A stretch of 64,000 bases of DNA from an uncultured Lachnospiraceae bacterium (GTDB taxonomy: Bacteria > Bacillota > Clostridia > Lachnospirales > Lachnospiraceae). A program made the position numbers and the translations under genes. Position 1 is the stretch's first letter. Each line of letters starts with the position of its first letter. The notes under the pieces are model-generated. The model made no database searches, had not been told where the DNA came from, and was given only the letters and a program-made list of their open reading frames with translations. The stretch lies in assembly GCA_902789175.1 (NCBI GenBank), contig CADANF010000012.1, positions 1-64,000 of the forward strand. Reading direction: 5' to 3'. Shown here one piece after another: positions 5,002 through 20,288 of this stretch.

Positions 5002-6699
5002 ATGAATAAAGATGATATTTTCGAAATAGAAATTGAAGATTTAGGAAATGACGGAGAAGGCATAGGTCACGTTGATGGAATGACTATATTTGTAAAAGAT
5101 CTATGTCCGGGTGATGTAGCCAAAGTAAAAATAATAAAGGCAAAGAAGAATTATTGTTATGGCCGTGCTATGGAGATAATCAAGCCTTCGAAACAAAGGG
5201 TTGAAGCAAAATGTCCTGTGGCAAGACAGTGCGGTGGTTGTGTTCTACAGCATCTTTCATACGAGGAGCAGTTAAGAAGAAAAGATAAAAAAGTAAGAGA
5301 TTGTCTTAGCAGGATTGGTGGCATTAAAGATATAGATTCTTACATGGAGCCACCGGTGGGAATGGAGGATCCATATCATTACAGGAACAAGATGCAGTTC
5401 CCTGTAAGACGTAACAAGGAAGGTAAGTGTGTTGTTGGCTTTTATGCGGGAAGAACCCATAGTATTATTCCTGTGGATTCTTGTGTTATAGGACACAGTG
5501 TAAATGACAATATCATTAAGGCAGTTAAGGCTTTTGTAGATAAGTTTAATATTTCCTGCTATGACGAATTAACAGGAAAAGGATTTCTTAGACACATTTT
5601 AACCAGAGTTGGATTTACCACAAATGAACTTATGGTATGTCTTATTGTTAATGGTGAAAGTCTGCCACATAAGGAAGTCTTTACAGAAATGATAAATGAT
5701 GCAGTGGCTGAGTATAATATAGCGGCTGACAAAAAAGATGATAATTTTAAAGAGATAATACTTAAATCGATAGTCATCAATATCAATAAGGAAAAGACCA
5801 ACAGGATCCTGGGCTTTAATTCAAAAACTATTTATGGTGACGGTTTTATCACAGATTATATCGGGGATGTTAAATTTATGATATCTCCGGAATCATTTTT
5901 CCAGGTTAATCCGGTGCAGACTGTTAAATTATACAGTAAAGCTTTGGAATATGCGGCCCTTACTGGAAATGAAACTGTCTGGGATATGTATTGCGGTATA
6001 GGTACAATCTCATTGTTTCTATCTGATAAGGCAAAGAAGGTTTATGGGGTTGAGATTGTTCCTCAGGCTATTATTGATGCAAAGAAAAATGCAAAGTTAA
6101 ATAATAGAGATAATATAGAATTTTATACCGGTAAGGCAGAAGATGTTGTAACCGAAATATATGAAAAGAAGGTTGAAGGATCTACAGCAGACGTGGTTTG
6201 TGTTGATCCTCCAAGAAAAGGGTGTGATGAGAAACTGCTTAATACCATAATTTCGATGGCTCCTAAGAGAGTGGTTTATGTATCATGTGATCCAGCAACT
6301 CTCGCAAGGGATGTAAAATTCCTTAGTGAGCATGGTTATGAATTAAAGAAGGCGGTGGCGTTTGACCAGTTTTCTCATAGTATGCACGTGGAGACGTGCG
6401 TCCTCTTGTCCCACCAACAGGTCAAAAAGTCTGTAACCATTGATTATACGCCTGATGGAAGCTATATGAAAAATGTCAATAGACATGCCACATACAAAGA
6501 AATCAACGAATACGTTGAAAATAAGTATGGTTTTAAGCTTCATTCTGCCTTTATAGCACAAGTTAAACGAGAAATGGGAATAGAGATGGGAGAGAACTAT
6601 AATCTGTCTAAATCGGACGATTATGAGCCTAGAGAGGTGACACCTGAAAAGCGTGCTGCAATAATAGATGCTTTAAGGCACTTCAACATGATTGAATAA
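5002..6699 (+). CDS. rlmD: 23S rRNA (uracil-C5)-methyltransferase RlmD/RumA family, with replaced C-terminal tail
   Basis: SAM-dependent methylation of a 23S rRNA uridine (U1939 in E. coli numbering). Residues 1-60 form a TRAM domain (IEIEDLGNDGEGIGHV). CPVARQCGGC near residues 74-83 fits the iron-sulfur cluster cysteines. DPPRKG and VVYVSCDPATLARD are the catalytic motifs, and SHSMHVET near His462 ends the core. About 104 residues follow the core, a tail (IAQVKREMGIEMGENYNL, ALRHFNMIE) seen on clostridial RlmD proteins. A second copy of that tail ends the recombinase at 18231-20288. I infer that the tail here came in with the integrated element and restored the gene. Confidence 0.93.
   Translation: MNKDDIFEIEIEDLGNDGEGIGHVDGMTIFVKDLCPGDVAKVKIIKAKKNYCYGRAMEIIKPSKQRVEAKCPVARQCGGCVLQHLSYEEQLRRKDKKVRDCLSRIGGIKDIDSYMEPPVGMEDPYHYRNKMQFPVRRNKEGKCVVGFYAGRTHSIIPVDSCVIGHSVNDNIIKAVKAFVDKFNISCYDELTGKGFLRHILTRVGFTTNELMVCLIVNGESLPHKEVFTEMINDAVAEYNIAADKKDDNFKEIILKSIVININKEKTNRILGFNSKTIYGDGFITDYIGDVKFMISPESFFQVNPVQTVKLYSKALEYAALTGNETVWDMYCGIGTISLFLSDKAKKVYGVEIVPQAIIDAKKNAKLNNRDNIEFYTGKAEDVVTEIYEKKVEGSTADVVCVDPPRKGCDEKLLNTIISMAPKRVVYVSCDPATLARDVKFLSEHGYELKKAVAFDQFSHSMHVETCVLLSHQQVKKSVTIDYTPDGSYMKNVNRHATYKEINEYVENKYGFKLHSAFIAQVKREMGIEMGENYNLSKSDDYEPREVTPEKRAAIIDALRHFNMIE
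6384..6424 (+). other. left attachment junction (attL) inside rlmD
   Basis: The rlmD codons for HVETCVLLSHQQ (about 6385-6420) align with HDETVCLLSKLH at the end of the recombinase (about 19962-19997). The shared skeleton is CACG, two bases, GA-AC, then TTGTCC. Left of the core the sequence is the host methyltransferase; right of it the tail differs from the host-type tail at the other end. The exact crossover dinucleotide cannot be fixed without an empty-site sequence. Confidence 0.6.
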
Positions 6700-6708
6700 T
6701 AAAAAAAT

Positions 6709-6738
6709 GGGAACCCATAACGGGTTCCCTAATTTTTT
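6709..6738. terminator. bidirectional terminator between rlmD and the nuclease gene
   Basis: GGGAACCC / GGGTTCCC stem with T-rich sequence on the right for rlmD and A7 on the left for the oppositely transcribed DUF262-HNH gene. Confidence 0.85.
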
Positions 6739-7906
6739 AATACATATCTGACTTCTTGCTATTACAGTCTTTGCAAAGTAATTGCAGATTCTCTATTACT
6801 GTTTTACCGCCTTTACTCCAAGGTTTAATATGGTCGCCTGCCATTTCGGCATAAGTAAAAATACGTTTGCACATAGCACATTTATGATTTTGTTTTTCAA
6901 AGATAACCATCTTATCATCATCATCAAAAGTTCTAAGGCTTAATAACTTAGCTGCAAAAGGGTCATCATCTTTACTGAGCAAGTATTCATAAATGCCTGT
7001 TTTCTTTTGAACTTCTTTATCCTCATGAAGCTTCTTGACTTCATCGCTCATAGTAGTGGAATTATATGTTTTGCCATTATACTTGTTATATAGATGACAC
7101 CAATCAAGACCCTTCATATCAGCATAGTATTTAGGGAATATCTTTTGTACCCAATTGATAACATCTTGGAAATACTGCCATAGTTCATCTGAATCAGCAT
7201 CTGATTTGTGAGCAGCCATATAATCTGTGATATCTTTAAGACCTTGATACTCACAGATACCCTTCAATGCTTTTTCAAGCAATTCTTGTCTGATAGGGTC
7301 AGCTTTAATATATTTATCACTCAATCCTTTTGCCGCACAATTTCTTTTTGAAAAATGACGCTTGGCATCAGAGAGCCACGAACCTGTATAAACAGAGTTT
7401 CTAAGCTCTTGGTCAGTAAGTTTTTCACCACCGATATTTACAACTTCAAACCATTCAAGTTTTTCAGATTCAGTACCTTCACAGATATAAACCATGAACT
7501 CATAGTCCATAAGCTTATTATACATATCATCAGGTAGTGAATCTTCATAATAAGATTTACCATCTAAAGCGATTTGTAATTTGTGATTCAAAAAATACAT
7601 AGCAGATAGCGTTCTTTGCTGACCATCAAGAACTTCAAATTCCACATCATCAGAAAAAACAAGTTTTTTATCATCATCTTTAGTGATAGTTCCCTTAGTT
7701 AGAACCCAATACATAGTGTTGAGAGGAAATCCTTTTATCATGGTATGAAGAACATTTTCTTGTTTTTTTAAATCATATACGAATTCTCTTTGATATGGTG
7801 GTCTTATAGTGAGTTTTCCTCCATAAGCAAAAACACCATCTTCGCCATCATCTTTAAAACCATTGAAAACATCTTTTACTTTAACGTTATATAATTCAAT
7901 CTTCAT
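6737..7906 (-). CDS. DUF262 (GmrSD-like) plus HNH endonuclease protein
   Basis: 389 residues. The N-terminal half is a DUF262 domain: IRPPYQREFVYD, FPLNTMYWV and the nucleotide-site motif VLDGQQRTLSAMYF near residues 93-106. The C-terminus is an HNH zinc-finger nuclease: CAMC, then GDHIKPWSKGG, then CKDCNSKKSD. GmrSD and related DUF262-HNH proteins are nucleases that restrict modified or foreign DNA, with DUF262 thought to gate cleavage by nucleotide binding. Its start overlaps the end of the upstream methyltransferase by 11 bases, so the two should be co-translated. This makes it the candidate restriction partner of the two methyltransferases. It could also serve a wider anti-phage role. Confidence 0.85.
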   Translation of the reverse strand: MKIELYNVKVKDVFNGFKDDGEDGVFAYGGKLTIRPPYQREFVYDLKKQENVLHTMIKGFPLNTMYWVLTKGTITKDDDKKLVFSDDVEFEVLDGQQRTLSAMYFLNHKLQIALDGKSYYEDSLPDDMYNKLMDYEFMVYICEGTESEKLEWFEVVNIGGEKLTDQELRNSVYTGSWLSDAKRHFSKRNCAAKGLSDKYIKADPIRQELLEKALKGICEYQGLKDITDYMAAHKSDADSDELWQYFQDVINWVQKIFPKYYADMKGLDWCHLYNKYNGKTYNSTTMSDEVKKLHEDKEVQKKTGIYEYLLSKDDDPFAAKLLSLRTFDDDDKMVIFEKQNHKCAMCKRIFTYAEMAGDHIKPWSKGGKTVIENLQLLCKDCNSKKSDMY

Positions 7907-8969
7907 TATCTGATTCCTTTCTGCGAATAATTATCCTTGAGAAGGGTTTATGTAGTTTTCCGTTTTGGTCCCTATAAATAGGATTTCCAGCTCTAAAAGA
8001 TTTGTTTTCTTTAAAAAGAGCATCCTTCTCATCATCGGATAGATTTGCACTCATTCCGATACTTTTTCCAAGTTCACTTTCTGCTAGACCAATAATTTCA
8101 AATTGGTCTGGATTATATTTTTCAAGGAAACTATCAGGAACGCCCATATTCCCATAATAGTCCATTGGGATTTCAGCAACCTTTCCAACATCTATCGCAT
8201 CATAATTTATATACTTGATATATTCATCTTCATTATATTTGCGATACATTATCAATTCTTCGTGCCTTTTTGTTATATCAAGATTGGTATACCAAAGTAC
8301 ATTTCCGAATTTCTGTGTTGTACCGTCAGGCTTCAAAAATTCCTTAACATGATTATATCCAATCCAAAACTTATCGTTTTGGATTAATGGAAATATCTCT
8401 TTATAATGCAATGCATTTTGATTTCCAATGATAAGAAATTTCTTATCATATTCCATCAGAGAGTTGATATAATCTCTAAACAGACTAAAAGGTGGGTTTG
8501 TAACAACAATATCAGCCTGCTTTAAATATTCCACGCATTCTGCAGAACGGAAATCGCCTTCGCCTTCTAGCTTTTTTACTCCTCGTTTTTTCGATGTTAA
8601 GAGTTTTTCAATATCATCATCGGAAACACCTCTACCATTTGCCATTGGAACTTCTGTTATATCCATAACATAGCCATGACCTCTTTTTACAGGTTCATCA
8701 AGATAATCAAATATAGTCATTTGTGTTCCGACGACAGGCGAAGAAGTATATGATGTACATATAAGTCTTTTCAATCCTAAATAATTAAAGTTCTTTAGAA
8801 AGAACTTGCAGAAATTAGATTCAAAAGGGTCATCACAATTACAAAGAACTGTTTTATTTTTAAAGTGTTCTTCATAATGATTCAATTCAGCCTGAATATC
8901 TTCATAACGAGTATAAAATTCATCGTTCTTTGCATCTTTTGCTGCATTCAAGCTAGAATTCTTAGCCAT
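7896..8969 (-). CDS. EcoRI-family adenine-specific DNA methyltransferase, copy A
   Basis: 357 residues of the EcoRI-methylase family (N6-adenine). The catalytic motif NPPFSLFRDY lies near residue 155 within VVTNPPFSLF, and the start has the family pattern (KNDEFYTRYEDIQAEL, then LCNCDDPFESNF). I take the ATG at 8969 because AAAGGAG lies nine bases upstream; the ATG at 8978 abuts that site. It overlaps the end of copy B by 8 bases and the nuclease start by 11, giving a tightly coupled three-gene operon. The N-terminal 200 residues are nearly the same as copy B, while the part after about residue 195 differs and may set DNA specificity. Confidence 0.88.
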   Translation of the reverse strand: MAKNSSLNAAKDAKNDEFYTRYEDIQAELNHYEEHFKNKTVLCNCDDPFESNFCKFFLKNFNYLGLKRLICTSYTSSPVVGTQMTIFDYLDEPVKRGHGYVMDITEVPMANGRGVSDDDIEKLLTSKKRGVKKLEGEGDFRSAECVEYLKQADIVVTNPPFSLFRDYINSLMEYDKKFLIIGNQNALHYKEIFPLIQNDKFWIGYNHVKEFLKPDGTTQKFGNVLWYTNLDITKRHEELIMYRKYNEDEYIKYINYDAIDVGKVAEIPMDYYGNMGVPDSFLEKYNPDQFEIIGLAESELGKSIGMSANLSDDEKDALFKENKSFRAGNPIYRDQNGKLHKPFSRIIIRRKESDNED

Positions 8970-10032
8970 TATTTCCATCTCCTTTTGCTTTTATAACAAT
9001 ACGGTCATACATTCTTTTACCTTGAATATAGAATCTTCCTGACTTTTTCTTTCCGTTAATCATAATCGGTTTTGCTAAATCACCGCTTATTCCTACAATT
9101 TCAAATTGATTTGGATTAAATTTGTTCAAGAAGGTTATAGGAACACCCATTTCTCCTTTATAATCACAAGGTATTTCGGTGGTTTTATTTATATTGATAG
9201 CTTCGTAATTGTCATAATTTGGATAATCTTCCTCAGAACCATAGTATTTTCGATATAAATCAAGTTCTTCATGTCGTTTATTGTGGTCAAGATTTGTAAG
9301 CCACAAACAATTGTTTGTCGAAACTATCCGTTCACCATTTTCGCTAATACGAGCTTCAGTGCCATATAATTCATAACTATCAGGAACTATGAATCCTGAA
9401 ATCCATCTTCCCATTCCAGTTCCAAGCCAAACTTTATTGTCTTTAATGAGCGGAAATATCTCTTTGTACGTTATCGCATTAATATTTCCAATAATCAAGA
9501 ACTGCTTATCATACTCAATAAGAGTTGCAACATATTCTCTGAATAAACTAAATGGAGGATTAGTAACAACGATATCTGCTTGCTTAAGATATTCGAGACA
9601 TTCGTCAGAACGGAAATCGCCATCTCCTTCGAGTTTTTTTACTCCTCTTTTTGGAGACTTAAGCAATTTTTCAATATCGTCATCAGAAACACCTCTACCA
9701 TTTGCCATTGGAACTTCTGTTATATCCATAACATAGCCATGACCTCTTTTTACAGGTTCATCAAGATAATCAAATATGGTCATCTGTGTTCCCACAATAG
9801 GTGATGAAGTATATGATGTACAGATAAGTCTTTTCAACCCTAGATAATTAAAGTTCTTTAGAAAGAACTTGCAAAAGTTTGATTCAAAAGGGTCATCACA
9901 ATTGCAAAGAACAGTTTTGTCCTTAAAGTGTTTCTCATAATTGTTCAACTCTTTTTGAATATCTTCATAAAGAGTATAGAACTCATCTTTTTTATTGCTC
10001 TTTGCTGCTGTAAGAACATCCTGTCTTGGCAT
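8962..10032 (-). CDS. EcoRI-family adenine-specific DNA methyltransferase, copy B
   Basis: 356 residues, a paralogue of the gene downstream. It has the same N-terminal layout (KKDEFYTLYEDIQKEL, LCNCDDPFESNF) and catalytic NPPFSLFREY. From about residue 195 to 270 it carries a different segment (including GTGMGRWISGF and VPDSYELYGTE). Homology resumes near EIP-DY-G-MGVP and NP-QFEI. Nucleotide identity with copy A is very high at an offset of 1063 bases, so the pair arose by recent duplication or is being homogenised. The start overlaps the stop of the small RHH gene (TAATG). The recognition sequence cannot be deduced. Confidence 0.88.
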   Translation of the reverse strand: MPRQDVLTAAKSNKKDEFYTLYEDIQKELNNYEKHFKDKTVLCNCDDPFESNFCKFFLKNFNYLGLKRLICTSYTSSPIVGTQMTIFDYLDEPVKRGHGYVMDITEVPMANGRGVSDDDIEKLLKSPKRGVKKLEGDGDFRSDECLEYLKQADIVVTNPPFSLFREYVATLIEYDKQFLIIGNINAITYKEIFPLIKDNKVWLGTGMGRWISGFIVPDSYELYGTEARISENGERIVSTNNCLWLTNLDHNKRHEELDLYRKYYGSEEDYPNYDNYEAININKTTEIPCDYKGEMGVPITFLNKFNPNQFEIVGISGDLAKPIMINGKKKSGRFYIQGKRMYDRIVIKAKGDGNNG

Positions 10033-10205
10033 TATTTGCCACCACCTTTCATTTCTTCTTCATATTTTTCTTTAATCCATTGTGATAAAAGAGCGGAAGA
10101 AGTCATTTCATGTTTTATAGCCAATTCCTTGAGCTTTTCTTTATCATTAACGCTCAAAGAAACGGACATGACAGTTCTTTCAACAGCATCCTTACTCTTA
10201 GCCAT
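10032..10205 (-). CDS. small ribbon-helix-helix (CopG-like) protein
   Basis: 57 residues with VERTVMSVSLSVNDKEKLKELA, fitting a beta strand plus two helices of the RHH/CopG fold. GAAAGGAG sits seven bases before the ATG at 10205; the frame extends to 10226 but without a better start. It is the first gene of the methyltransferase-nuclease operon, with its stop overlapping the next start. It therefore probably acts as the operon's controller or as an antitoxin-like DNA-binding protein. DNA binding is inferred from the fold only. Confidence 0.65.
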   Translation of the reverse strand: MAKSKDAVERTVMSVSLSVNDKEKLKELAIKHEMTSSALLSQWIKEKYEEEMKGGGK

Positions 10206-10299
10206 AATAGTGCTCCTTTCGCACATGATTTTCTAAATAATATTTCAATAAAAATTATATAAAAATTATTGATGCTATTCAAGAATAAAGGATATGTTT

Positions 10300-10510
10300 T
10301 ATACGCTTTTTTATGTCATTTAATAGCTAAATAATTACAATTAAATAGTAATAAAATAGTTATTTATTGGCACTCTGGCATTAAATTACAATTAAATGCA
10401 CGTAAATAAGATAAAAACAGGATTTTAATAGCAATTAAATATCAGTTTTTATCCATGACGTAAAAAAATAGGTATTTAATGACAATTTAACTGCCATTAA
10501 ATACCTATTA
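10300..10510. repeat. AT-rich intergenic region with repeated CAATTAAAT motifs
   Basis: The 300-base gap between the RHH operon and the relaxase gene holds no gene. It contains three copies of CAATTAAAT (near 10340, 10389 and 10432) plus variants such as CATTTAAT, CATTAAAT and CAATTTAA, spaced about 40-50 bases apart. The last two arms belong to the terminator at 10461-10509. The repeats could be binding sites for the RHH protein encoded just left of them, or simply AT-rich drift. Confidence 0.45.
10461..10509 (-). terminator. terminator for the mobilization operon
   Basis: A perfect 13-bp inverted repeat TAGGTATTTAATG / CATTAAATACCTA (10469-10481 and 10495-10507, extendable by two A-T pairs) is followed on the minus strand by a run of seven T. 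It lies about 20 bases after the relaxase stop. The stem is AT-rich, so termination strength is uncertain. Confidence 0.6.
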
Positions 10511-10529
10511 AAATACAATTATTTATATA

Positions 10530-11879
10530 TTAAATTCCATAGTCTTCCTCATCATCAGGAAGTATGTCAAGAGGCATATTCATCTGCTCAACATCATGAT
10601 TGATTTTATCAATCAATTTTTGTTGATATGATTTTTGATAAGTGCTCTCAGATGCCTTATCAGCCATTTTTGAAGTTGTAGCCTTGCGGTGTGCCTTCAC
10701 AGGCTCTAAAACGTCTGTATGAAGCCCTGAACGTGTCTCAGGTACATTTGCTTGAGGATGACTCAAAAAGACTTTGTAAGCCTCTTGAGCACGTTCATAT
10801 GCATCTAAATCAAATTCACCATCATCTGAAAGATAAGCATATCCATTTTCGTAAGCCCAATCATTGAATTTATTAGCTTTTTCTTCCAGTTCTTTCTTCC
10901 CTGATTCAGAGATAACAGGAGCATCAGAAATAACCTCAGACTCATCATAATAAGCAGTAGCTTGATTATCATTCTGCTTCTCAGCAATCTTTTCATCAAG
11001 GGCTTTTGGCATATAATCTCCGCCAAGCTTATCACTTCTGATTTTCCTTTTACCTTTCGGAATCTCATCTTCCGATTTGATTTTGCTAGCATCTTGCATC
11101 GAATAAGTGAAATATTCACCATGTCTTTTGAGCGTTCCATTTCTTACAATTGTGACTCCACGGTCATTTAATTTGCTAAAAAAATCATCCCTTGATGTAG
11201 CTTCGTTCATTGCAAGTTTGATGCGACTTTTCAAATCATCTTCCCAAATGTAATGCGGAGCATCTTCTCCATTTTTGATTGCTTCTTGGTTCTCCTGACG
11301 CATCCTTCTAACGTGCCTAGAAACCTTATCTTTTGATAACTTTATTTGGCTCGTTTTATTATCAAAAATATCCTTATAATCCATATCAACATCGATGTAT
11401 TTTTTTGCAATTTCATCAGCACCTTTTGCAACATACGTAAATTTAGTTTGCTCATCAGAACAGCCTTTAAAATCTGTCATTGAAACGTTGTTCACAATAA
11501 TGTGACAGTGAAGTTTTCCACCTTCACCATCATTTTGAACACATATTAAAGTCTGTCTATTTGGGTAATATTTTTCTGCAAATTCTCTAGAAATCTCACC
11601 TGCAATAAGAGCAGAGTTTGGGTCTTTTGGGTCTAATTCTTGCTCACTAAAAGAGAGAACAATACGGCGAACTTGATTCTTATTTCTGCTTGAAGCACGA
11701 GACCAATATTCGTTCATTTGGTCAGCATAAGAAGGCGGCTGATTTGGAAACATTCCGACAGTAGTTACAAACAAATTTCGTTTCTCATTGTTGTTATGAC
11801 CTTTACTTTCTTTACCACCTAAAGCATAGTCAATAGCCGCTTTACCAAAAGCAGTTGCTGTTATTCGAGTATACGGCAT
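10530..11879 (-). CDS. relaxase / mobilization nuclease (MobA/VirD2-like)
   Basis: 449 residues. The relaxase domain occupies roughly the first 220 residues: an N-terminal MPYTRI start, RRIVLSFS, and the metal-binding HxHxxxN motif in LHCHIIVNN near residue 125. The C-terminal half is charged and helical, typical of relaxase tails. The protein should nick at oriT and lead the strand into a helper conjugation pore. Its start overlaps the end of mobC by 19 bases. The oriT-like hairpins lie just upstream of mobC, the standard arrangement. No coupling protein is encoded in the window. Confidence 0.9.
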   Translation of the reverse strand: MPYTRITATAFGKAAIDYALGGKESKGHNNNEKRNLFVTTVGMFPNQPPSYADQMNEYWSRASSRNKNQVRRIVLSFSEQELDPKDPNSALIAGEISREFAEKYYPNRQTLICVQNDGEGGKLHCHIIVNNVSMTDFKGCSDEQTKFTYVAKGADEIAKKYIDVDMDYKDIFDNKTSQIKLSKDKVSRHVRRMRQENQEAIKNGEDAPHYIWEDDLKSRIKLAMNEATSRDDFFSKLNDRGVTIVRNGTLKRHGEYFTYSMQDASKIKSEDEIPKGKRKIRSDKLGGDYMPKALDEKIAEKQNDNQATAYYDESEVISDAPVISESGKKELEEKANKFNDWAYENGYAYLSDDGEFDLDAYERAQEAYKVFLSHPQANVPETRSGLHTDVLEPVKAHRKATTSKMADKASESTYQKSYQQKLIDKINHDVEQMNMPLDILPDDEEDYGI

Positions 11880-12334
11880 AATTGCTCACCTACCTTCTTT
11901 GTAGCTTCTTCGTATCGGTTCATAATAGCGTCTAAATCTTTCGCAGGAAGACAGTCTTTTTTGATTTCTTCTTCCTCAGCCGCTTTCATCGCTATGTCAT
12001 CAAAATTACTTGAACCTGCATATTTTTTTTCGATATGTTTCAGTTTCAATTCTTGGTTATAATTGATACCAATTCGTTTCAACTCACTGCGAATTCCTTC
12101 CATTTCGGAATATAAGGCATATAGTGTTTTGTGATATTTTTCAGCATCATCATGTTCTACAAAATGAATTTTGGGAACATACCACAGAAGCCTTTTATCG
12201 ACTAAAAGTCTTAAAATTTCAGAATTACTTCTTCCGTTATTGGCAACTATTATATCTATCACAGACATAATCTCAGGGGAGAGTCTAATGCTAACAGGGA
12301 CGAGGGTGTTGGTTTCTTTTTCTTTATTATCCAT
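11861..12334 (-). CDS. MobC-like relaxosome accessory protein
   Basis: 157 residues. The N-terminal segment VPVSIRLSPEIMSVIDIIV resembles a ribbon-helix-helix DNA-binding unit, followed by a coiled helical region (YSEMEGIRSELKRIGINYNQELKL) like MobC proteins, which help the relaxase open oriT. AAAGGAG precedes the ATG at 12334; the open frame continues upstream to 12394 without a better start. It overlaps the relaxase gene, which supports joint function. Confidence 0.75.
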   Translation of the reverse strand: MDNKEKETNTLVPVSIRLSPEIMSVIDIIVANNGRSNSEILRLLVDKRLLWYVPKIHFVEHDDAEKYHKTLYALYSEMEGIRSELKRIGINYNQELKLKHIEKKYAGSSNFDDIAMKAAEEEEIKKDCLPAKDLDAIMNRYEEATKKVGEQLCRILE

Positions 12335-12356
12335 TTCAAAAACTCCTTTCCAAATA

Positions 12357-12575
12357 TGAGCGGTTGGTAAAAAGAGGGCAGAGCACGATTTCAACCGCAG
12401 AAAAAATGCAGGTAATGGGTTTGTATACGAAAAACGTATATCAAACCCTCAACCTGCTAGGGGACAGCCCTTTGGGCTTTCCCCTAGAACCCCTTTTAAC
12501 CGAAAACCGATGTATCTCCAAAAAGGAGATTCCGATCGGTTTTGGTAATTGCAAAAAACACTAGCAGAGCACGAG
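12357..12575. other. putative origin of transfer (oriT) with four hairpins
   Basis: The non-coding stretch between mobC and the next small gene is dense in dyads. These are GCGGTTG / CAACCGC (12360-12398), GGGTTTGTATACG with CGTATA-T-CAAACCC (12417-12448), CTAGGGGA / TCCCCTAG with an inner CAGCCC / GGGCTT (12457-12485), and ACCGAAAACCGAT / ATCGGTTTTGGT with inner ATCTCC / GGAGAT (12499-12546). A CAGAGCACGA direct repeat flanks the cluster (12379 and 12564). Position next to mobC-mobA and this structure fit an oriT. The nick site is not identified. Confidence 0.65.
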
Positions 12576-12582
12576 GGTTGAA

Positions 12583-12888
12583 TTATTGCAGAGCCGAAGT
12601 TGGAGCAACAGGTGTTGTAGCATTTTGAGACTTCTGAGGTTCTGCATCTAATTCTGTTTTTGCTTTTGAAAGAATCGAATCAAAGTTTGAAACGATGTCT
12701 TTTACAGCTTTTTTGAGAACAGCGTCATCAGCAGAAACTACTTTTTCTTGAAAAGCTTTCTTCTTAAATTCTTTCTCAAAAGCACTTGTAATAATATCAA
12801 GCTTCTGACCTTTTAAAGCATCAGCTTGTTCAATAAGTCTAGCGATATCACGCTGCAAATCCGTGTAAGTCTTTTTTGATTTTGACAT
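12583..12888 (-). CDS. small hypothetical protein of the mobile element
   Basis: About 101 residues, starting MSKSKKTYTDLQRDIARLIEQADALKG, with strongly helical, lysine/glutamate-rich content and a low-complexity Pro/Thr/Ala end (TTPVAPTSAL). The ATG at 12888 has AGGTAGG upstream; the open frame extends to 12909. No family is recognised. It sits between the primase gene and the oriT region in the same orientation, so it may be a replication or relaxosome accessory factor. Function unknown. Confidence 0.6.
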   Translation of the reverse strand: MSKSKKTYTDLQRDIARLIEQADALKGQKLDIITSAFEKEFKKKAFQEKVVSADDAVLKKAVKDIVSNFDSILSKAKTELDAEPQKSQNATTPVAPTSALQ

Positions 12889-12948
12889 AATTTTGTACCT
12901 ACCTTTCATTTGATACTCTGGCTCGTTTGGGAGCCAGAGCGTTAGTTT

Positions 12949-14613
12949 TTATTCTTCATTTGAATCATCTGTGGAGCCAATTCTTAAAATGCCTCTGTAT
13001 CTATCTGCTAAAACAGGTATAGCAAGTAAGTCCTTATTTCTGCCTTTATGAGTTGTACTCATCCACTCCTTTAGGTCATACTCAACGATAAGGGGTTCAG
13101 GACCATTCATGTTGTTTTGCGAAACTCTGATTTGCTTTCTTTTATCCTCACAAAACCAATTCCTATCATTTCTAATAACTGCTAATAAATCATTAGTGAA
13201 TGTTGATTTTCCAATGACAGTACCTGATGGATTATTCTTTCTGAACCATGCTGTAAACAAGTCATATAAAAATGGGAATGGAAGCAAATCCCACTTGAAT
13301 TCATCACGAAGCTCATTCCAAAATTGTCTCACAGGGTCGTTGTACTCTTTATATTCTTCAAGAGCGATTTTGCAGGACTCAGGTTCAGATAACTTATAAA
13401 AATTAGTCTCAAGAGCCTTCTTCATTACATACTCAAGAACTTCCTCTCTATGCAGGTAGTCATTCTTTATTTCAGGTATCTCTATACCTGTAAAGCATTT
13501 GGTCATTGGAATGAAAAGCTGTCTTCTGAAGAATGAATCAGATTTATCTTTTATTCTTGGCAAGTCATTCAAACACTGAACCACAAAGAGATGAGGTCTA
13601 TACTTTATTGGGTCTTTATTTTTTCGGTCTATGTAGACCATGTCAGATGTGATAACAGCTTTCAAGTTTGCAGCCTTATCCAAGTAACCTCCAACATCGT
13701 TTTCATCAGTTATGATTGCAGATTTTCCTATCAGCTGAGTCAATGCAAACCGTTCTGAAAAATCTGTAAGAGCAATAGAACAATGTGCTTCGTCACCAAG
13801 TAGAGAACGCCACATTTCAACTAAAGTTCCTTTGCCATTGGCACCAGTGCTACTCATAAGAAATGCACCCATATTCCATCTAACATGTGGTCTAAGGAGT
13901 GCTGATGTAATTTCCCAAAACAGATTTACAATCGCAGGGTCATCATTCAAATCAGACATCCATGTTTCCACTTCCCAATCCTCACCATTTGGCATTGTGA
14001 TTATGGGGCTTACAGCGTTAGGATTATAATTCACGCATGATTTTGTGAGGAATACATAATCAGGTGTGAAAGCTTCAAGTTCTTTTGTGTCGTAATGAAA
14101 AATGCCGTTATTAACAGCAATCAAATCTTTGTCATCGGTAGCACCGACTATGTCATCCCCAGACATATCAAACAGATAATCTTTAACGATACGTTTGTCT
14201 TTTGGTGTGATGCCTTCATCAACAAAATCTATCATTTCATTTACAATCAAATCTTCAGTACGATATAAACCACGATATTTTTCATATTTACCATTTGAAA
14301 TATTGATGACAACATCATTGATATAAATACCAAAAATGACACCATATTCTGTATCTTCACTTACACGAATTTTCCGTGTTTTGAAAACGAAATTTATAAT
14401 GCGTGCAACTTGGTATACTGTGATGTTATCTTCCAATTTCCACCAATTCTTTTTATCAGTAGGGAATTCGTTAATATTTCGCTCTTGATATTTTTGATTA
14501 GTAATACCAAGTAATTTATTTCTAGCATCTTTGATACTGTCGAGTGATGTGAATTTGTAATTTGATAGGAATTCATTTGTTGCGGCACATATAACATCTA
14601 GTTTAGTTAACAT
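12949..14613 (-). CDS. phage/plasmid primase-helicase, P4 family C-terminal type (SF3)
   Basis: 554 residues. The SF3 helicase core includes Walker A in STGANGKGTLVEMW (near residue 257), Walker B-like SAIITDENDV, and the sensor region FVVQCLNDLPRI with DSFFRRQLFIPM, as in P4 alpha-type proteins. The N-terminal part resembles the D5-N/primase-associated region and lacks a clear catalytic primase motif. Such proteins start replication of phage satellites and mobile elements at iteron origins. One lies about 700 bases away at 15316-15606. It is in one operon with the excisionase-like gene just upstream. Confidence 0.88.
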   Translation of the reverse strand: MLTKLDVICAATNEFLSNYKFTSLDSIKDARNKLLGITNQKYQERNINEFPTDKKNWWKLEDNITVYQVARIINFVFKTRKIRVSEDTEYGVIFGIYINDVVINISNGKYEKYRGLYRTEDLIVNEMIDFVDEGITPKDKRIVKDYLFDMSGDDIVGATDDKDLIAVNNGIFHYDTKELEAFTPDYVFLTKSCVNYNPNAVSPIITMPNGEDWEVETWMSDLNDDPAIVNLFWEITSALLRPHVRWNMGAFLMSSTGANGKGTLVEMWRSLLGDEAHCSIALTDFSERFALTQLIGKSAIITDENDVGGYLDKAANLKAVITSDMVYIDRKNKDPIKYRPHLFVVQCLNDLPRIKDKSDSFFRRQLFIPMTKCFTGIEIPEIKNDYLHREEVLEYVMKKALETNFYKLSEPESCKIALEEYKEYNDPVRQFWNELRDEFKWDLLPFPFLYDLFTAWFRKNNPSGTVIGKSTFTNDLLAVIRNDRNWFCEDKRKQIRVSQNNMNGPEPLIVEYDLKEWMSTTHKGRNKDLLAIPVLADRYRGILRIGSTDDSNEE

Positions 14614-14625
14614 CTAATACACCTC

Positions 14626-14874
14626 CTAAAGTTCGGAGACATCAGCAAGATATCGCTCAAATTTTTCTCGGTGAATAAAATTTTTTTTCTGACCTTTCAT
14701 CTTCACCACAAAATCACAATCGGGCTTGTTGATAATTGTGTAAAGCTGGTTATAAGCTATACCACTCAAAGCACTCGCTTCAGGTACTGTTAAGAATATC
14801 TTTTCGCTGATTCTAACTTGGTTTTTTAAACTCATTAGATTGGAGAGTTCATTTTTGTCTTTTTTTGTATTCAT
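14626..14874 (-). CDS. excisionase-like helix-turn-helix protein
   Basis: 82 residues. The segment TVPEASALSGIAYNQLYTIINKPDC followed by VVKMKGQKKNFIHREKFERYLA matches the MerR-like winged HTH of Tn916-type Xis and 'excisionase family' proteins. GAAAGGAAGG precedes the ATG at 14874. It is the first gene of the primase operon. It may direct excision by the serine recombinase, or regulate the operon. A structured leader with a terminator-like hairpin lies directly upstream. Confidence 0.72.
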   Translation of the reverse strand: MNTKKDKNELSNLMSLKNQVRISEKIFLTVPEASALSGIAYNQLYTIINKPDCDFVVKMKGQKKNFIHREKFERYLADVSEL

Positions 14875-14902
14875 AGTGACCTTCCTTTCTGAATTTGATA
14901 AT

Positions 14903-14966
14903 AAAAAAAGAGGATATGAACAGTAGTGGTTGTAAGTAACCAACTACTGCCCATATCCTCAGAATT
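14903..14966 (-). promoter_or_regulatory. leader hairpin / probable attenuator before the excisionase gene
   Basis: On the minus strand GAGGATATG...CATATCCTC plus CAGTAGT...ACTACTG and a short GGTT / AACC form a long, nearly continuous stem, directly followed by CTTTTTTT and then, 20 bases on, the gene's ribosome binding site. A second small stem (GGTGG / CCACC, 14973-14996) precedes it. A terminator between promoter and first gene suggests attenuation of the replication/excision operon. The + strand side also ends in TTTTTT. Confidence 0.6.
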
Positions 14967-15090
14967 TTTTAAGGTGGGTCTGCGATGCCTTCCACCGTCA
15001 CAGTTATAAAAGCGTAAAGTATATTTAATTTCTTCTAACATATTATCATAGTATCTAACTGTTTACAACACAAAAATATAAGAAAATTAT

Positions 15091-15118
15091 CTACGTGCTT
15101 CTCGTGTCCCACCAAAAG
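15091..15118 (+). other. internal attachment-like sequence
   Basis: ACGTGCTTCTCGTGTCCCAC followed by CAAAAGG resembles the rlmD junction at 6395-6422 (ACGTGCGTCCTCTTGTCCCA then CCAACAGG). Translated, it still reads VLLVSHQK, close to CVLLSHQQ in rlmD. It lies in the non-coding middle of the element. It may be a leftover attachment site from an older or nested element. Confidence 0.4.
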
Positions 15119-15315
15119 GGGGATAAAAAAAGAAGCGATGAACTAATCACCGCTTCCTAGACTAATGAACTAAACACGAGTCATATAGCCTGAATTCCTA
15201 TAAATATTTTATCAAAAATCACAGAGTAAATCAATTGAAACACTGATAAAATAAGGGTTTTTCTATATATTTTTAATCGCAAATCACACCTGAAAAAGAA
15301 GTGAGATAAAACTGA

Positions 15316-15606
15316 TGTCACCAAATGTCACAAAAATTGTCACCACGATTTTTAGCTGTATTGAATACGTCAAACCCTTGATTTTACAGGCTTTGATGCA
15401 CTTGTCACCAATGTCACCAATTTTTTTAAAAACTCCATCTATATATATGAAAATCACAGAAAAAATAAAAAAGTTATTTTTTGTGGTGACATTGGTGACA
15501 TTCATATATTTTTCTTAAAAAACCTTATAAAATCAGGGTTTCTACTTATAAAAGTCGTCACCAAAGCTGTCACCAAACATATTTTTTGTCACCAAAATTG
15601 GTGACA
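15316..15606. repeat. iteron array, candidate replication origin
   Basis: Eleven copies of TGTCACCAA or close variants lie within 291 bases. Direct copies start near 15316, 15326, 15338, 15403, 15412, 15556, 15568 and 15587; inverted copies (TTGGTGACA or GTGGTGACA) start near 15483, 15492 and 15598. The sequence between them is very AT-rich. No convincing gene overlaps. Iterons beside a P4-type primase-helicase gene are the known layout of satellite-phage origins, so I infer an origin and binding sites for that protein. The rest of 14967-15762 holds only short dyads (for example TGAGATT...AATCTCA around 15690-15730). Confidence 0.7.
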
Positions 15607-15762
15607 TTTTGTAGTTCTCGCTCTTTTTTCTGTGATTTTCGATTGGTGGAGCCACTCATCCCTTTACTTTTACTCAAACCTTTCATCTGTGAGATTACAG
15701 CCTAACGGCTGCGGTTTGAATCTCAGAACTAAGAATCACAATGAAAGGAATGGTATATCTAT

Positions 15763-16782
15763 ATGTCTATTACACATCCACCACCTGAAATTCCGTGGTA
15801 CGAATCCCGTTATTCATCTTTTTCTACTGATAAGAACCAATACGCTCATCTGTCAGTCAGAGAAATCCACGAGGCTCTCAATGCTTCCGTGATAGGTCAG
15901 ACAGAAGCGACAAAGCAAGCTGCTATGCAGATGTACTTAACACTTCACAATCACAGAAGTATATACGTTTATGCGGGTCACACAGCATCAGGAAAGACCT
16001 ATATGTTTGAACAACTTTCAAAACTATTTCCAGGGCTTTGCTATGTGATAGATGCTAGTGGTCTTACAGCCGAAGGCATTGTCGGCAATAAGAAATGGTC
16101 AAACCTCTTATCACCAATCCAGCCGCACACACATGCTCTTGTAGTTCTTGACGAGATTGATAAGAGCCTTGCATCGCACATAGTTAGTTCAGGAGAGAAT
16201 ATCGCCGCTACAACTATGAACGAAGGATTGAGCATTCTACAGGGTACAATGCTTGAAATATCTTGTGGTAAGAATAACCGCTATACGCTTGATACAAGCA
16301 AACTTTCTTTCGCTTTAACAGGAGCGTTCTCAAACACAGCAAAAGACGTAGCCAAAGCTGCATCAACATCAATCGGTTTTGGAGCATCCCAAACAAAAGA
16401 ATCCGCTTATGAAAAGCCTTTTGATTATGACACGCTCCGAGAACATGGTCTCACAGAAGAATTTTGTGGGAGAATCAACAAAATCATAACGCTCAATAAT
16501 CTGACTGCTTCCACCTATCTTCAAATGCTGAATGACACATCATCAGGTCCAATCCATAAACTCCAAAACGAATTTAACATCAGATTTCACCTTCCAAATT
16601 CTTTGAAAGAAGAAATCGCTACGAAAGCATTTGAGTCACAGCTTGGAACACGATATGTCATTTCACAGCTTCAAAATCTTATAGAAGATTCTATCTATGA
16701 AGATGCAGACACAGATTATGTTGAGCATCTAAAGGATGATGGCTTTGTAGATGCCACATACCTTGAAACACCATTTGACTGA
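15763..16782 (+). CDS. ClpX-like AAA+ ATPase of the mobile element
   Basis: 339 residues. Walker A is GHTASGKT at residues 72-79 (ClpX has a similar P-loop with T-G-S/C-G-K-T), and Walker B is VVLDEIDKS near residue 130. An asparagine/threonine-rich loop (IAATTMNEGLSILQGT) resembles the ClpX segment after Walker B, and EEFCGRINKIITL resembles its sensor region. It lacks the ClpX zinc domain and the IGF loop is not evident, so it is probably not a ClpP partner. Possible roles are remodelling of replication or recombination complexes. It is followed 22 bases later by the DUF5688 gene. Confidence 0.72.
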   Translation: MSITHPPPEIPWYESRYSSFSTDKNQYAHLSVREIHEALNASVIGQTEATKQAAMQMYLTLHNHRSIYVYAGHTASGKTYMFEQLSKLFPGLCYVIDASGLTAEGIVGNKKWSNLLSPIQPHTHALVVLDEIDKSLASHIVSSGENIAATTMNEGLSILQGTMLEISCGKNNRYTLDTSKLSFALTGAFSNTAKDVAKAASTSIGFGASQTKESAYEKPFDYDTLREHGLTEEFCGRINKIITLNNLTASTYLQMLNDTSSGPIHKLQNEFNIRFHLPNSLKEEIATKAFESQLGTRYVISQLQNLIEDSIYEDADTDYVEHLKDDGFVDATYLETPFD

Positions 16783-16804
16783 GAATACTAAGGAGAATTT
16801 AATC

Positions 16805-17665
16805 ATGGAAAACATTATTTCAATCGAATCTATCGTTTCAGCACTCAGAACTAAAAGACCTGACCTTGAAATCAGCGTCAATGAAACCATCAAGAACAAG
16901 CAGAAACTTCAGGGAATCACCATCAAATCACCTGCCACTAACATAGCACCGAATATCTACGTCGAAAATTATATAAAAACCTTCGATTCTGTAGATGCTA
17001 TCGCTAATGCGATACTGAATACATACGAAGAACATAAATGCTTTGATAATTTCAATGTATCTGATATCTTGAATAAGGATTATATCTGCGACCATGTCTA
17101 TCCGCTTTTACAGCAGGCAAGTGATGAACCACTAATTAAGATGCCAATTCCAGAGGCATTTCATGGAGCTGAGGCATATCTTGCTATCGTATCACATACC
17201 GATGATGAAAACACCTTCTCGATAAAGCTCACACCGCAGATTCTAGCATCTGCCAATGTAGATATCGAATCAGACCATCTCTTTGAACGTGCTCTTGCTA
17301 ATCTCAAAGAGCAGGTGGTCATCACATCACTCTACGAGACAATCAAACAGATGACAGGAATGCCTGATGATTGTGATATGCCGTTTCCTTTTGATGAACA
17401 ACTTTTTGTCATCACCAATAAATCGAAGACCAAAGGTGCATCAGCAATTCTTTGTGATGATATCCTCAGGGGTTTTGCAAAGGAACATAACATTGAGGAT
17501 GGATTTTTTATACTTCCATCGAGCACCTCGGAATGTATCATTGTTCTCGACAATCATGAGATGAATATCGATACATTATCTGAGATGGTTCAATCCGTAA
17601 ATCAAAATGAAGTAGCCAAAGAAGACTGGCTGGCATCTGAAGCTTGGTATTATTCTCTGAAATAA
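16805..17665 (+). CDS. DUF5688 family protein
   Basis: 286 residues. The C-terminal half fits the DUF5688 pattern: LFVITNKSKTKGASAILC, then a long gap to FILPSSTSECIIVLDN, then LSEMVQSVNQNEVA and a final Trp-Tyr-Tyr segment. The family is common in Lachnospiraceae mobile elements and has no known function. AAGGAG precedes the ATG at 16805; the frame extends to 16751 without support. It forms an operon with the AAA+ ATPase and is closed by a terminator at 17729. Confidence 0.75.
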   Translation: MENIISIESIVSALRTKRPDLEISVNETIKNKQKLQGITIKSPATNIAPNIYVENYIKTFDSVDAIANAILNTYEEHKCFDNFNVSDILNKDYICDHVYPLLQQASDEPLIKMPIPEAFHGAEAYLAIVSHTDDENTFSIKLTPQILASANVDIESDHLFERALANLKEQVVITSLYETIKQMTGMPDDCDMPFPFDEQLFVITNKSKTKGASAILCDDILRGFAKEHNIEDGFFILPSSTSECIIVLDNHEMNIDTLSEMVQSVNQNEVAKEDWLASEAWYYSLK

Positions 17666-17728
17666 TTGGCGACGCTCTCAGATGCTCACAGAGCAACTTT
17701 TTGAACAGTACACGAAGAAGAATCCATA

Positions 17729-17767
17729 AAGCCCCTAAAACGCCTAAAATCGGCTTCTAGGGGCTTT
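17729..17767 (+). terminator. terminator after the DUF5688 gene
   Basis: AAGCCCCTA / TAGGGGCTT stem with an inner GCC / GGC pair, followed by only a short T run, then AT-rich sequence. Confidence 0.6.
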
Positions 17768-17813
17768 AAAGCAAACATATCTCAATGAGCTATAATTTTA
17801 GGAGCAAAATAAC

Positions 17814-18152
17814 ATGAAAATCAGTTTTTATATCGAGGACGGGAGCAATCCCGTCCTTAATGTTCTTCCAAAATCGGAAGGGAACATCCAAAAGCTTCGA
17901 GAGCAGGTTCAAAATCTTGAAATCGAAAATCCTGCTCTAACCTTTGCAAAAGAATATCGTAAATACGAACATAACGAGCCATCTGCTTTCAGTAACCTGT
18001 CAGATGCACAGATTGAGCAGATTGCTAAAATAGCGGATTTTCTTGCAGACCTTTGGAAGACCAAAGAAGAACCTAAAGGTGAGCCAAGAATAAATGTTGT
18101 CAAATTACTTGAAATTCTTCTTAATATCACAGCTTCTAATATCAGTATTTAA
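17814..18152 (+). CDS. small hypothetical protein
   Basis: 112 residues, starting MKISFYIEDGSNPVLNVLPKSEGNI, rich in charged helical segments and ending in a hydrophobic stretch (LLEILLNITASNISI). AGGAG lies about 10 bases before the ATG. No family is recognised. It stands between the DUF5688 terminator and the recombinase gene, in the same direction as both, and may be an accessory protein of the recombination module. Confidence 0.5.
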   Translation: MKISFYIEDGSNPVLNVLPKSEGNIQKLREQVQNLEIENPALTFAKEYRKYEHNEPSAFSNLSDAQIEQIAKIADFLADLWKTKEEPKGEPRINVVKLLEILLNITASNISI

Positions 18153-18170
18153 TGGGTTTTAATTGCACTT

Positions 18171-18184
18171 TTCCATATATGGAA
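18171..18184. promoter_or_regulatory. perfect 14-bp palindrome before the recombinase gene
   Basis: TTCCATATATGGAA lies 47 bases before the recombinase start, in the short gap after the preceding gene. Its symmetry and position suggest an operator, but no regulator can be assigned. Confidence 0.4.
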
Positions 18185-18230
18185 ATATAATTGGTGGTAC
18201 AAGTGAATCACGCATAAAAGGAACAATTTA

Positions 18231-20288
18231 ATGAAGAAAGTAGAAAAGAAGAAGTGTTATTTCTATACACGAGTATCCACTGAAATACAGGTAGATGGTT
18301 ACTCTTTGGAAGCACAATATAATGAACTTGAGAAAGAAGCCAAGCACAGAGGCTTTGTTCTTGCTCATCACTATTCCGATGAGGGAAAGTCAGGTAAGAA
18401 CATCACCAACCGTGACCAATTCAGAGAAATGCTCAACGCCATTAAAGAGAACAGAGATGGTGTATCATACGTCTTTGTTTTTAAGCTTTCACGTTTTGGT
18501 AGAAACGCAGCCGATGTTCTTAACTCTGTTCAGTTAATGCAGGATTATGGTGTGAATCTCTATTGTGTGAAAGATAACATTGATTCAGCATCTTCATCAG
18601 GAAAGCTTATGATTTCAGTTCTTTCAGCTGTTGCTGAAATCGAACGTGAAAACATCCAAGAGCAGACAATGGCAGGCAGAAGACAGAAAGCAAGAGATGG
18701 AAAATGGAACGGTGGCTTTGCTCCATATGGGTATGCTCTTGTTGATGGCAAGCTTGTGATTGATGAAGAAGAAGCTGTAATAATCCGTGAAATCTTCAAC
18801 AAGTTCGCCGAAGGTGATATTGGTCTTGGTGGCGTAGCGAAGTGGCTAACCTCCAAAGGATATACCAAGAAAATCAGACAGAACGGTACTGTATCTAATT
18901 TTTCAGCACACTTTGTAAAAGGTGTTATTGATAATCCTGTTTACATGGGTAAAATCGCCTATGGCAGACGCAAGAACGAGAAGATAGAAGGCTCTCGTAA
19001 CGAATACCATGTGATTAAAAATAAAGACTATAATACATATTACGATGGTATTCACGAAGCTATCGTTTCTGAAGAACTTTGGTACAAGTGCCAAGAGAAA
19101 CGTAAAATCACAGGTGTGAAACATGAGAAAGTATATTCGTTAGAGCATCAGCATGTACTTAGTTCTATTTTGAAATGTCCTATCTGTGGAGCAGGCATGT
19201 ATGGAAACATTTCAAGAAAGAAAAAGAAAAAACTTGGTCCAAATGGAGAAACAGAATGGTATAAAGACCAGTTCACATACGTCTGCAAGCACCGTAAGTT
19301 AATTGATGGTTATAAATGCGATTTTAAGCGTCAGCCGAATCAAGACAAAATCAATGCTGAAGTCTATGCTATCGTAAAAGAGTTTATACAAAAAGCATAC
19401 GCAGAATCAAAAGAATCTCTTGATGCTTTCGCCGTAAGCGAAGCTAATGAAAAAATTTCAGAAGTAAATAACAATAGCATTTTAGAAGAAAGAAAAGCAG
19501 ACTTAGAACGTCTGAAAAAGACTTATGACCAAAAAGAAGCTGCAAAGAACAAATTCTTTGACAGGATGCAATCACTCGATATCTGTGATGTGAACTATGA
19601 TATCAAGTTTGATGATTTGCAAAAAATGCAAGATAAGCTTTATATTGAGCTGCAAGAAATTGATAAGCAAATCGCCGAACTCGAAGCTTCGATAAATGCA
19701 TCAACTGAAGAATCAGAGATGTTTGACTATGCTATGGAGTGCTTCCATGAGATGATGGAGAACGGAATAGAAAACTATCCTGACGCTGCAAAGAAAGATT
19801 TCTTTAAACAACTGATTGAGAGTGTGGAAATCTTTGAAGATGATAAGGAGCATGGTAGGTGGGTCAAGCACATTAGATTTAAAATACCGATTGCCTATGA
19901 GGATGATGGCGATGAAGTGCTTGATTATTATCCTGATGATAATTGGTGTGACACTGTGAATCACGATGAAACTGTATGTTTATTGTCCAAACTTCATGAG
20001 GCAAAGCATCATATTAATGTAAAAGTGGATATGGACGAACTGGACCTGACGAGTGCAGAAGCCAAGGCAACATATAAAGAGATTGAAGAATGGGTGCAGG
20101 AGCACTATGGGGTTCATGTGACAAATCTGAACATTGCTCAGGTGAAGCAGAAGCATGGGATCATAGAGTGTGAAAATTACAATAAGCCGAAATCTGAGAA
20201 TAGCAGACAGCCTGGATGTCCGGAAGAAAAGGTTAAAGCAATAGAGGATGCTTTGAGACATTTTCAGATGATTTCTGATGAATTATAA
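18231..20288 (+). CDS. large serine recombinase (integrase) fused to the RlmD tail
   Basis: 685 residues. Resolvase domain at 1-150 with the catalytic serine in YTRVSTEIQ (Ser16) and SRFGRN; the recombinase domain follows (GGFAPYGY, NPVYMGKIAYG), then a zinc-ribbon (CPICGAGMY...CKHR) and a coiled coil about residues 420-500. These are the parts of large serine integrases. Residues 578-685 are not recombinase but a clostridial RlmD tail: HDETVCLLSKLHEAKHH, IAQVKQKHGIIE, ALRHFQMI. I infer that integration into rlmD fused the displaced host tail in frame to the integrase. GGAAC before the ATG is a weak ribosome binding site. Confidence 0.92.
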   Translation: MKKVEKKKCYFYTRVSTEIQVDGYSLEAQYNELEKEAKHRGFVLAHHYSDEGKSGKNITNRDQFREMLNAIKENRDGVSYVFVFKLSRFGRNAADVLNSVQLMQDYGVNLYCVKDNIDSASSSGKLMISVLSAVAEIERENIQEQTMAGRRQKARDGKWNGGFAPYGYALVDGKLVIDEEEAVIIREIFNKFAEGDIGLGGVAKWLTSKGYTKKIRQNGTVSNFSAHFVKGVIDNPVYMGKIAYGRRKNEKIEGSRNEYHVIKNKDYNTYYDGIHEAIVSEELWYKCQEKRKITGVKHEKVYSLEHQHVLSSILKCPICGAGMYGNISRKKKKKLGPNGETEWYKDQFTYVCKHRKLIDGYKCDFKRQPNQDKINAEVYAIVKEFIQKAYAESKESLDAFAVSEANEKISEVNNNSILEERKADLERLKKTYDQKEAAKNKFFDRMQSLDICDVNYDIKFDDLQKMQDKLYIELQEIDKQIAELEASINASTEESEMFDYAMECFHEMMENGIENYPDAAKKDFFKQLIESVEIFEDDKEHGRWVKHIRFKIPIAYEDDGDEVLDYYPDDNWCDTVNHDETVCLLSKLHEAKHHINVKVDMDELDLTSAEAKATYKEIEEWVQEHYGVHVTNLNIAQVKQKHGIIECENYNKPKSENSRQPGCPEEKVKAIEDALRHFQMISDEL
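19961..19998 (+). other. right attachment junction (attR) in the recombinase C-terminus
   Basis: CACGATGAAAC at 19962-19972 begins the RlmD-like tail fused to the recombinase, aligning with CACGTGGAGAC at 6385-6395. Everything from TGTATG rightwards reads like the C-terminus of a Lachnospiraceae RlmD, which marks the host side of the junction. Confidence 0.6.

Follow-up and report, generated by a model that had tools for sequence, protein, structure and literature searches.

Two EcoRI-type adenine methylase genes beside one DUF262-HNH nuclease gene in a Lachnospiraceae genome: a putative restriction-modification operon with exchangeable candidate recognition segments

A 64,000-nt stretch of DNA from an uncultured Lachnospiraceae bacterium (contig CADANF010000012.1, positions 1 to 64,000, assembly GCA_902789175.1; hereafter the window) carries on its minus strand, at positions 6737-10205, an operon in which a nuclease gene is preceded by two genes for EcoRI-type adenine methylases. 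The original prediction of four overlapping or abutting genes, in the order ribbon-helix-helix (RHH) protein, methylase B (MB), methylase A (MA) and nuclease (R), was borne out by the coordinates of the open reading frames (ORFs) and by Pfam matches; neighbouring frames share 1, 17 and 11 nt. The first gene encodes a small CopG-like RHH protein (10032..10205, minus strand). Its longest frame begins at an in-frame upstream start at 10226 (64 aa), and the alternative start at 10205 (57 aa) is likelier because it is preceded by the ribosome-binding-like sequence AAAGGAG. MB (8962..10032, 356 aa) and MA (7896..8978, 360 aa), both on the minus strand, retain an intact NPPF motif. R (6737..7906, minus strand, 389 aa) combines a DUF262/GmrSD_N domain (7388..7807) that has a DGQQR motif with a C-terminal HNH domain (6746..6880), in which the Cys pairs and the DH, N and N positions are invariant in alignments A1 and A3. 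Between the operon and an RlmD-like gene lies a terminator-like hairpin (6709..6729) flanked on both strands by T-rich tails. Five terminator-like sites were found in the region, compared with a mean of 1.4 in shuffled sequences, and promoter-like sites (18) were no more numerous than the 20.4 expected from shuffles.

The PF13651 EcoRI_methylase profile is matched over its whole length by both methylases (2.7e-124 and 3.8e-142; 415 and 474 bits, cut-off 26.4). R matches PF03235 GmrSD_N (9.3e-19; 68.8 bits, cut-off 33.2) and PF01844 HNH (1.6e-14); its Pfam matches include neither DUF1524 (up to E 0.1) nor a helicase family as in a type III Res subunit. Among PADLOC profiles, the type II profile PDLC03418 (REase_II) covers R almost completely (1.5e-109; R residues 1-387, profile 1-371/372), and the type II methylase profile PDLC03297 matches MB (1.5e-135, 8-328/332) and MA (1.3e-105, 5-310/332). 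In the AlphaFold model of R (mean predicted local distance difference test score, pLDDT, 91.6), the top-ranked PDB match is BrxU (7p9k, E 2.5e-5, with a TM-score of only 0.21), followed by ParB-like and HNH entries, all above E 0.001; these matches make a nucleotide-dependent action of R plausible. The model of MB is fair (mean pLDDT 81.4). The RHH match to PF01402 (0.0012) falls just under the family cut-off. Homologues of the RHH protein are encoded directly 5' of the methylase in few relatives (loci L028, L029, L188, L008, L009, L189 and L010, E ≤1.4e-5; a weak homologue in L044), and the gene may have a regulatory role.

The methylase alignment was divided into an N-terminal core (N-core), a central segment (segment 1), a middle part and a C-terminal module (C-module). 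MA and MB share 83% identity in the N-core, 15% in segment 1, 61% in the middle part and 13% in the C-module, that is, they differ exactly in the segments that are variable among relatives. The prediction that they are two different methylases therefore holds for segment 1 and the C-module but not for the N-core. The segments that resemble target recognition domains (TRDs) lie on the minus strand at 8298..8381 (segment 1, boundaries from the alignment) and 7899..8096 (C-module) in MA, and at 9307..9444 and 8965..9099 in MB. Segment 1 of MB shares 76% identity with its counterpart in a methylase partnered by an EcoRI-type nuclease; the C-module of MB is of a non-EcoRI type (20%).

A stretch 96% identical to the window (approximately positions 6388-12515) is present in assembly L028 (Butyrivibrio, roe deer rumen). 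The four operon genes are all intact there, each at 94-100% DNA identity, and RHH is identical. Differences from L028 amount to 59 synonymous and 7 non-synonymous changes in R (dN/dS, the ratio of non-synonymous to synonymous divergence, 0.02), 53 and 7 in MB (0.03), and 9 and 3 in MA (0.08). Decay of one methylase into a pseudogene was considered and rejected on this single comparison, since both genes are intact and the changes are mostly synonymous. Synonymous divergence (dS) is far lower in MA (0.04) than in MB (0.30) and R (0.33), so the operon is a mosaic. The genome of the window contains four PF13651 genes, two in the window and two on a 5-kb contig, where the pair also stands 5' of a GmrSD_N-HNH gene; the frame of this second nuclease is broken by an in-frame stop, and the protein is distant from the R of the window on the R tree.

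Relatives of R were then collected from overlapping genome samples, each of which contains the genome of the window. At E 1e-30, PDLC03418 was matched in 15 out of 392 genomes of the order sample, 9 out of 391 of the class sample, 8 out of 398 of the phylum sample and 11 out of 397 of the family sample. Further loci came from the best 80 of 559 confirmed relatives in a scan of genome contigs, from 80 matches in viral contigs (the last two cover only the DUF262 part, at 26-27%) and from 86 plasmid records, 43 of which cover at least 80% of R. After removal of 13 partial nucleases and 11 exact duplicates, the pooled loci comprised 178 distinct complete R genes, and the 160 with at least 1250 nt of upstream DNA (18 shorter ones being left out) were used to count linkage.

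Among these 160 relatives, 150 have one methylase gene, 7 have two and 3 have fragments only (L072, L087 and L140), so that a complete methylase accompanies R in 157. Upstream DNA alone gave 152, 5 and 3, and wider stretches revealed a second methylase in L211 and L212; the other two-methylase loci are the window, the C66 contig, L028, L109 and L152. The methylase stop and the R start are separated by a median of 1 nt, and by at most 30 nt in 124 out of 156 cases; at one locus (L171) the methylase lies 3' of R. In a survey that started from the methylase, PF13651 was found at E 1e-20 in 23 of the 392 order genomes. Fifteen of the 23 also have R, and they include every R-bearing genome of the sample, so that homologous loci do not usually lack the nuclease. 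The other eight comprise two with an EcoRI-type nuclease adjoining (L230, L237), one with an R fragment (L227) and five in which no nuclease was seen in the surrounding DNA, which in some ends at a contig end. The original prediction called an HNH-domain nuclease joined to two different methylases an unusual combination. The pairing of a DUF262-HNH nuclease with an EcoRI-type methylase is in itself the standing architecture of a widespread family, and both proteins have type II profiles in PADLOC; the idea that the combination as such is rare was rejected. What is unusual here is the second methylase, and the change of methylase segments while the nuclease stays. No paper describing this pairing, and none describing a repeat-switched EcoRI-type methylase, was found in the titles and abstract starts of the openly licensed PMC literature.

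Two arrangements stood apart among the loci collected. In Mycobacterium phage Hami1 (L252), an EcoRI-type methylase gene is followed by a 50-codon gene that matches only the first 43 residues of R (60%); the phage may have kept the methylase and shortened the nuclease. On contig C20 of genome G250 (L215, L216), methylase and nuclease pieces recur at intervals of about 13 kb (near 11, 25 and 38 kb), the later copies being fragmented.

The relationship between nuclease and methylase was analysed in 135 single-methylase loci, from which five copies had been removed and two-methylase loci excluded. In the 31 pairs of loci whose R proteins are at least 90% identical, median identities are 94% for R, 81% for the N-core, 24% for segment 1, 69% for the middle part and 28% for the C-module. 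Identity is below 50% in segment 1 in 22 pairs, in the C-module in 27, in both in 21 and in exactly one in 7. With nothing dropped, there are 38 pairs, of which 22 fall below 50% in segment 1, 27 in the C-module and 10 in neither (mostly copies of one locus); without L013, there are 30 pairs in six clusters. The Bacteroidales loci L056, L057, L067 and L068 have R proteins that are 98-99% identical and methylases that differ in both segments, and L068 and L081 share segment 1 (98%) and differ in the C-module (28%). Differences between the R proteins of close pairs are spread along the protein, with no block comparable to the methylase segments. At L056, L057, L062 and L067, a near-identical 318-residue gene with a Fic-like motif lies between the exchanged methylase and R.

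For comparison, eight methylases encoded beside EcoRI-type nucleases were examined, six of them plasmid-borne, with one near-identical pair among these, and two genomic; L249, which has a different methylase, was left out. At these loci, conservation of segment 1 exceeds that of the N-core in 28 out of 28 pairs, and conservation of the C-module does so in 22 out of 28, suggesting that the segments are held where the nuclease itself reads the site and are free to vary in DUF262-HNH systems. Segment 1 of MB stands, together with that of L028, at the top of 156 rows in its 76% identity to the EcoRI kind. An EcoRI-like C-module (at least 45%) combined with another segment 1 occurs in six rows from five loci (L012=L085, L013, L180, L061 and L042), and none of the 156 rows has both segments of the EcoRI type at cut-offs of 50% for segment 1 and 45% for the C-module.

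Of 186 loci (counting duplicates) screened for repeats and for module starts that occur more than once, 23 were flagged. Three-frame translation of the DNA 3' of each repeat defined 14 distinct switch loci, in which a di-, tetra- or pentanucleotide repeat of 12-80 nt lies inside the C-module region; the 12-nt repeat of L098 is below the threshold of the repeat scan. All three frames are open to a C-module end in nine (L018, L029, L035, L036, L038, L039, L053, L063 and L213), two frames in four (L032, L033, L037 and L098) and one in L014, with one frame end each in L038, L039 and L033 judged by eye. L018, L033 and L053 start at a contig end inside the repeat, and L036 and L063 come from isolate genomes. 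In a control of 140 methylase rows outside the switch list, read over the C-module and not from a repeat, none had both alternative frames open over the C-module; the +1 frame was open in one and the +2 frame in three, with 8 stops per 100 codons. The same module types recur across different loci and positions. On the R tree, the window falls into a set of 14 rows with full support (Shimodaira-Hasegawa-like approximate likelihood ratio test, SH-aLRT, 100 by a quick method), comprising 10 switch loci, 2 two-methylase loci and 2 that are neither, and the two-methylase state requires at least 4 changes. A repeat switch inside the operon of the window was considered and rejected, as the sole tandem repeat in 6700-10300 is a 2-copy 11-mer 5' of the operon. 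Repeats on the 5' side of the methylase, in the classic on/off layout, occur in L041, L047, L071 and L128 (e.g. ACGC x23 in L041), whose hosts are a Pasteurellaceae bacterium, a Neisseria assembly and two others. In L060 (Coriobacteriales, about 33-106), a CA x37 repeat stops some 90 nt 5' of the nuclease match, and the contig starts just upstream.

Gene content, linkage, intactness, the pattern of variability and the repeat-and-frame architecture of relatives can all be read directly from the DNA. They are best explained, with a probability of roughly 0.6, by a restriction-modification operon in which the methylase serves as an address label and the DUF262-HNH protein as a shared nuclease that itself has no address, so that the window would hold two addresses. 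Each methylase would read DNA through segment 1 and the C-module, acting as target recognition domains, and methylate adenine in its own motif. R, a ParB/Srx-type NTPase-like domain joined to HNH, would act with or through the methylase on DNA without that mark, taking its specificity from its partner, and two complete methylases would give one nuclease two addresses simultaneously. In relatives with one methylase gene, slippage in the repeat may select among alternative C-modules. Of the possibilities raised in the original prediction, a restriction-modification system with two specificities fits best, since the divergence between MA and MB falls exactly on the TRD-like segments. An R with its own specificity would leave the host exposed whenever the methylase motif changed; hence either the methylase addresses R or R needs no address. 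The former is favoured because linkage of the two genes is near-universal and usually tight.

Other explanations for the second methylase and for the role of R were weighed against the same data. In a classical type II system of the LlaJI- or IIS-like kind, R would read one asymmetric site, and MA and MB would each protect one strand. Paired methylases for one asymmetric site are established, as described for LlaJI (PMC12707154) and MhoVII (GATG/CATC, PMC12898733), and such a division of labour would account for both methylases of the window staying intact. We nevertheless consider it quite unlikely. Only one methylase is present at the 150 loci counted above, and the constancy of R (90-99% identity) beside changed methylase segments, which an intrinsically specific nuclease should forbid, argues against independent recognition of a shared site; at one-methylase switch loci, moreover, a change of C-module would expose the host. 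An EcoRI system in the strict sense would include an EcoRI-type restriction enzyme, whereas the partner here consists of GmrSD_N and HNH.

That domain composition could also mean that R is a modification-dependent type IV nuclease, GmrSD- or BrxU-like, which accompanies the methylases and cuts foreign modification or wrong methylation, with no need for a sequence match. Its N-terminal GmrSD_N domain and its top-ranked, if low-scoring, match to BrxU agree with this, and any methylase specificity would be tolerated. Such an enzyme would, however, need to ignore the N6-methyladenine placed by its own partner. According to passages of PMC12707154, GmrSD enzymes act on modified DNA without a partner methylase, and the near-universal, usually tight linkage found in relatives speaks against a GmrSD-type cutting of modified DNA that involves no cognate methylase. 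A type IV role seems unlikely overall. It is likewise unlikely, if less so, that only one methylase works with R and the other is a passenger, either a recently captured orphan or the leftover of a specificity exchange. The mosaic divergence from L028 points in this direction, as do the small number of two-methylase loci (7) and the at least 4 changes that they need on the R tree; the intactness of both methylases with mostly synonymous changes does not, nor does the second methylase-methylase-nuclease set in the genome of the window, although the R frame there is interrupted.

Several observations weigh against the proposal that the methylase addresses R. Methylase segments uncoupled from R are also what one would expect of a sequence-blind or modification-dependent R that never reads the motif of the methylase. 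Three of the 31 close pairs keep both segments (L062/L068, L054/L090 and L013/L085), the last of these in separate genomes with R 93% identical; segment 1 remains at 50% or more in 9 of the 31 and the C-module in 4. Metagenome assemblies supply most of the loci, and the pairs of any one cluster depend on each other. The contrast with EcoRI-type loci is small (8 loci, two near-identical), and in six of its pairs, all of which involve L248 with its long-tailed frame, the C-module is less conserved than the core. No population with differing repeat lengths was seen. Finally, a search with the AlphaFold model found no PDB neighbour of the methylase at E 0.001, a sequence search being likewise fruitless, so that homology gave no position on DNA for the variable segments.

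The operon shares individual features with several known systems. M.EcoRI belongs to the same methylase family (PF13651), and MB carries an EcoRI-type segment 1; the system of the window differs in its DUF262-HNH partner, in its freely varying segments and in having two methylases. In GmrSD, BrxU and SspE, too, a His-Me finger nuclease follows an N-terminal DUF262 domain, whereas R is shorter, is coupled to a methylase and has a PF01844 HNH domain without DUF1524. In type I systems with duplicated or phase-variable hsdS, and in type III Mod/Res systems, an exchangeable recognition module serves a constant nuclease. The operon resembles them in this respect but has neither HsdS nor a helicase-type R, its putative recognition parts lying inside an EcoRI-type methylase. 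NgoAV, described in passages of PMC6789123, is one example. LlaJI, according to a passage of PMC12707154, also joins an NTPase-containing restriction enzyme to two methylases; its McrBC-like enzyme itself reads an unmodified asymmetric site, while one-methylase relatives dominate here. A parallel to the switch loci exists in Helicobacter pylori, where repeat-length change in the type IIG enzymes JHP1272 and HP1353-HP1354 adds an alternative C-terminal recognition region and alters the methylated motif; in passages of the same source, the authors regard such a switch as harmful unless the nuclease specificity switches too (PMC3936762). Those enzymes unite methylase and nuclease in a single polypeptide that has two states. 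In the present family the nuclease is separate, the alternatives of relatives lie in up to three frames and those of the window are two whole genes.

The operon adjoins the RlmD-like gene and lies within what looks like an integrative mobilizable element, whose other genes are found at 10530..20288. They encode a relaxase (10530-11879, minus strand), a second RHH protein (11861-12394, minus), a P4-type primase (12949-14613, minus), a Tn916-Xis-like protein (14626-14943, minus), an AAA protein (15763-16782, plus) and a large serine recombinase (18231-20288, plus). No direct repeats were found within each end of the element, and comparison of the ends by blastn gave a weak 36-nt match (75%). The last 85 or so residues of the recombinase are similar to the C terminus of the RlmD-like protein (6400-6699), with a shared pattern ending in DALRHFxMI, as if the recombinase carried a copy of the 3' end of its target gene; at the DNA level, the similarity amounts only to the 36-nt match. 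As cargo of such an element next to the RlmD-like gene, the operon would defend the host and also stabilise the element. Elsewhere in the window, positions 49400-62257 encode a putative surface protein of 4285 residues that matches SpaA (prealbumin-like) 18 times and an LPXTG anchor weakly.

For the family as a whole, the chances are about even that the EcoRI-type methylase is an interchangeable guide of a GmrSD-like nuclease, bearing a two-part code that is diversified by segment swaps between strains, by the presence of two guides and by flipping among as many as three C-modules, one per reading frame, behind a slippery repeat. If the methylase does address the nuclease, a textbook methylase family would double as a guide subunit, and annotations that look like type II would conceal a guide-like logic. 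A modular code for adenine-methylation motifs would become testable, with MB, which has one of the two EcoRI-type recognition parts, at hand. Alternative C-termini in three frames behind one repeat would offer a new route for switching restriction specificity in a clonal population, and such switching would yield subpopulations with different phage and plasmid barriers.

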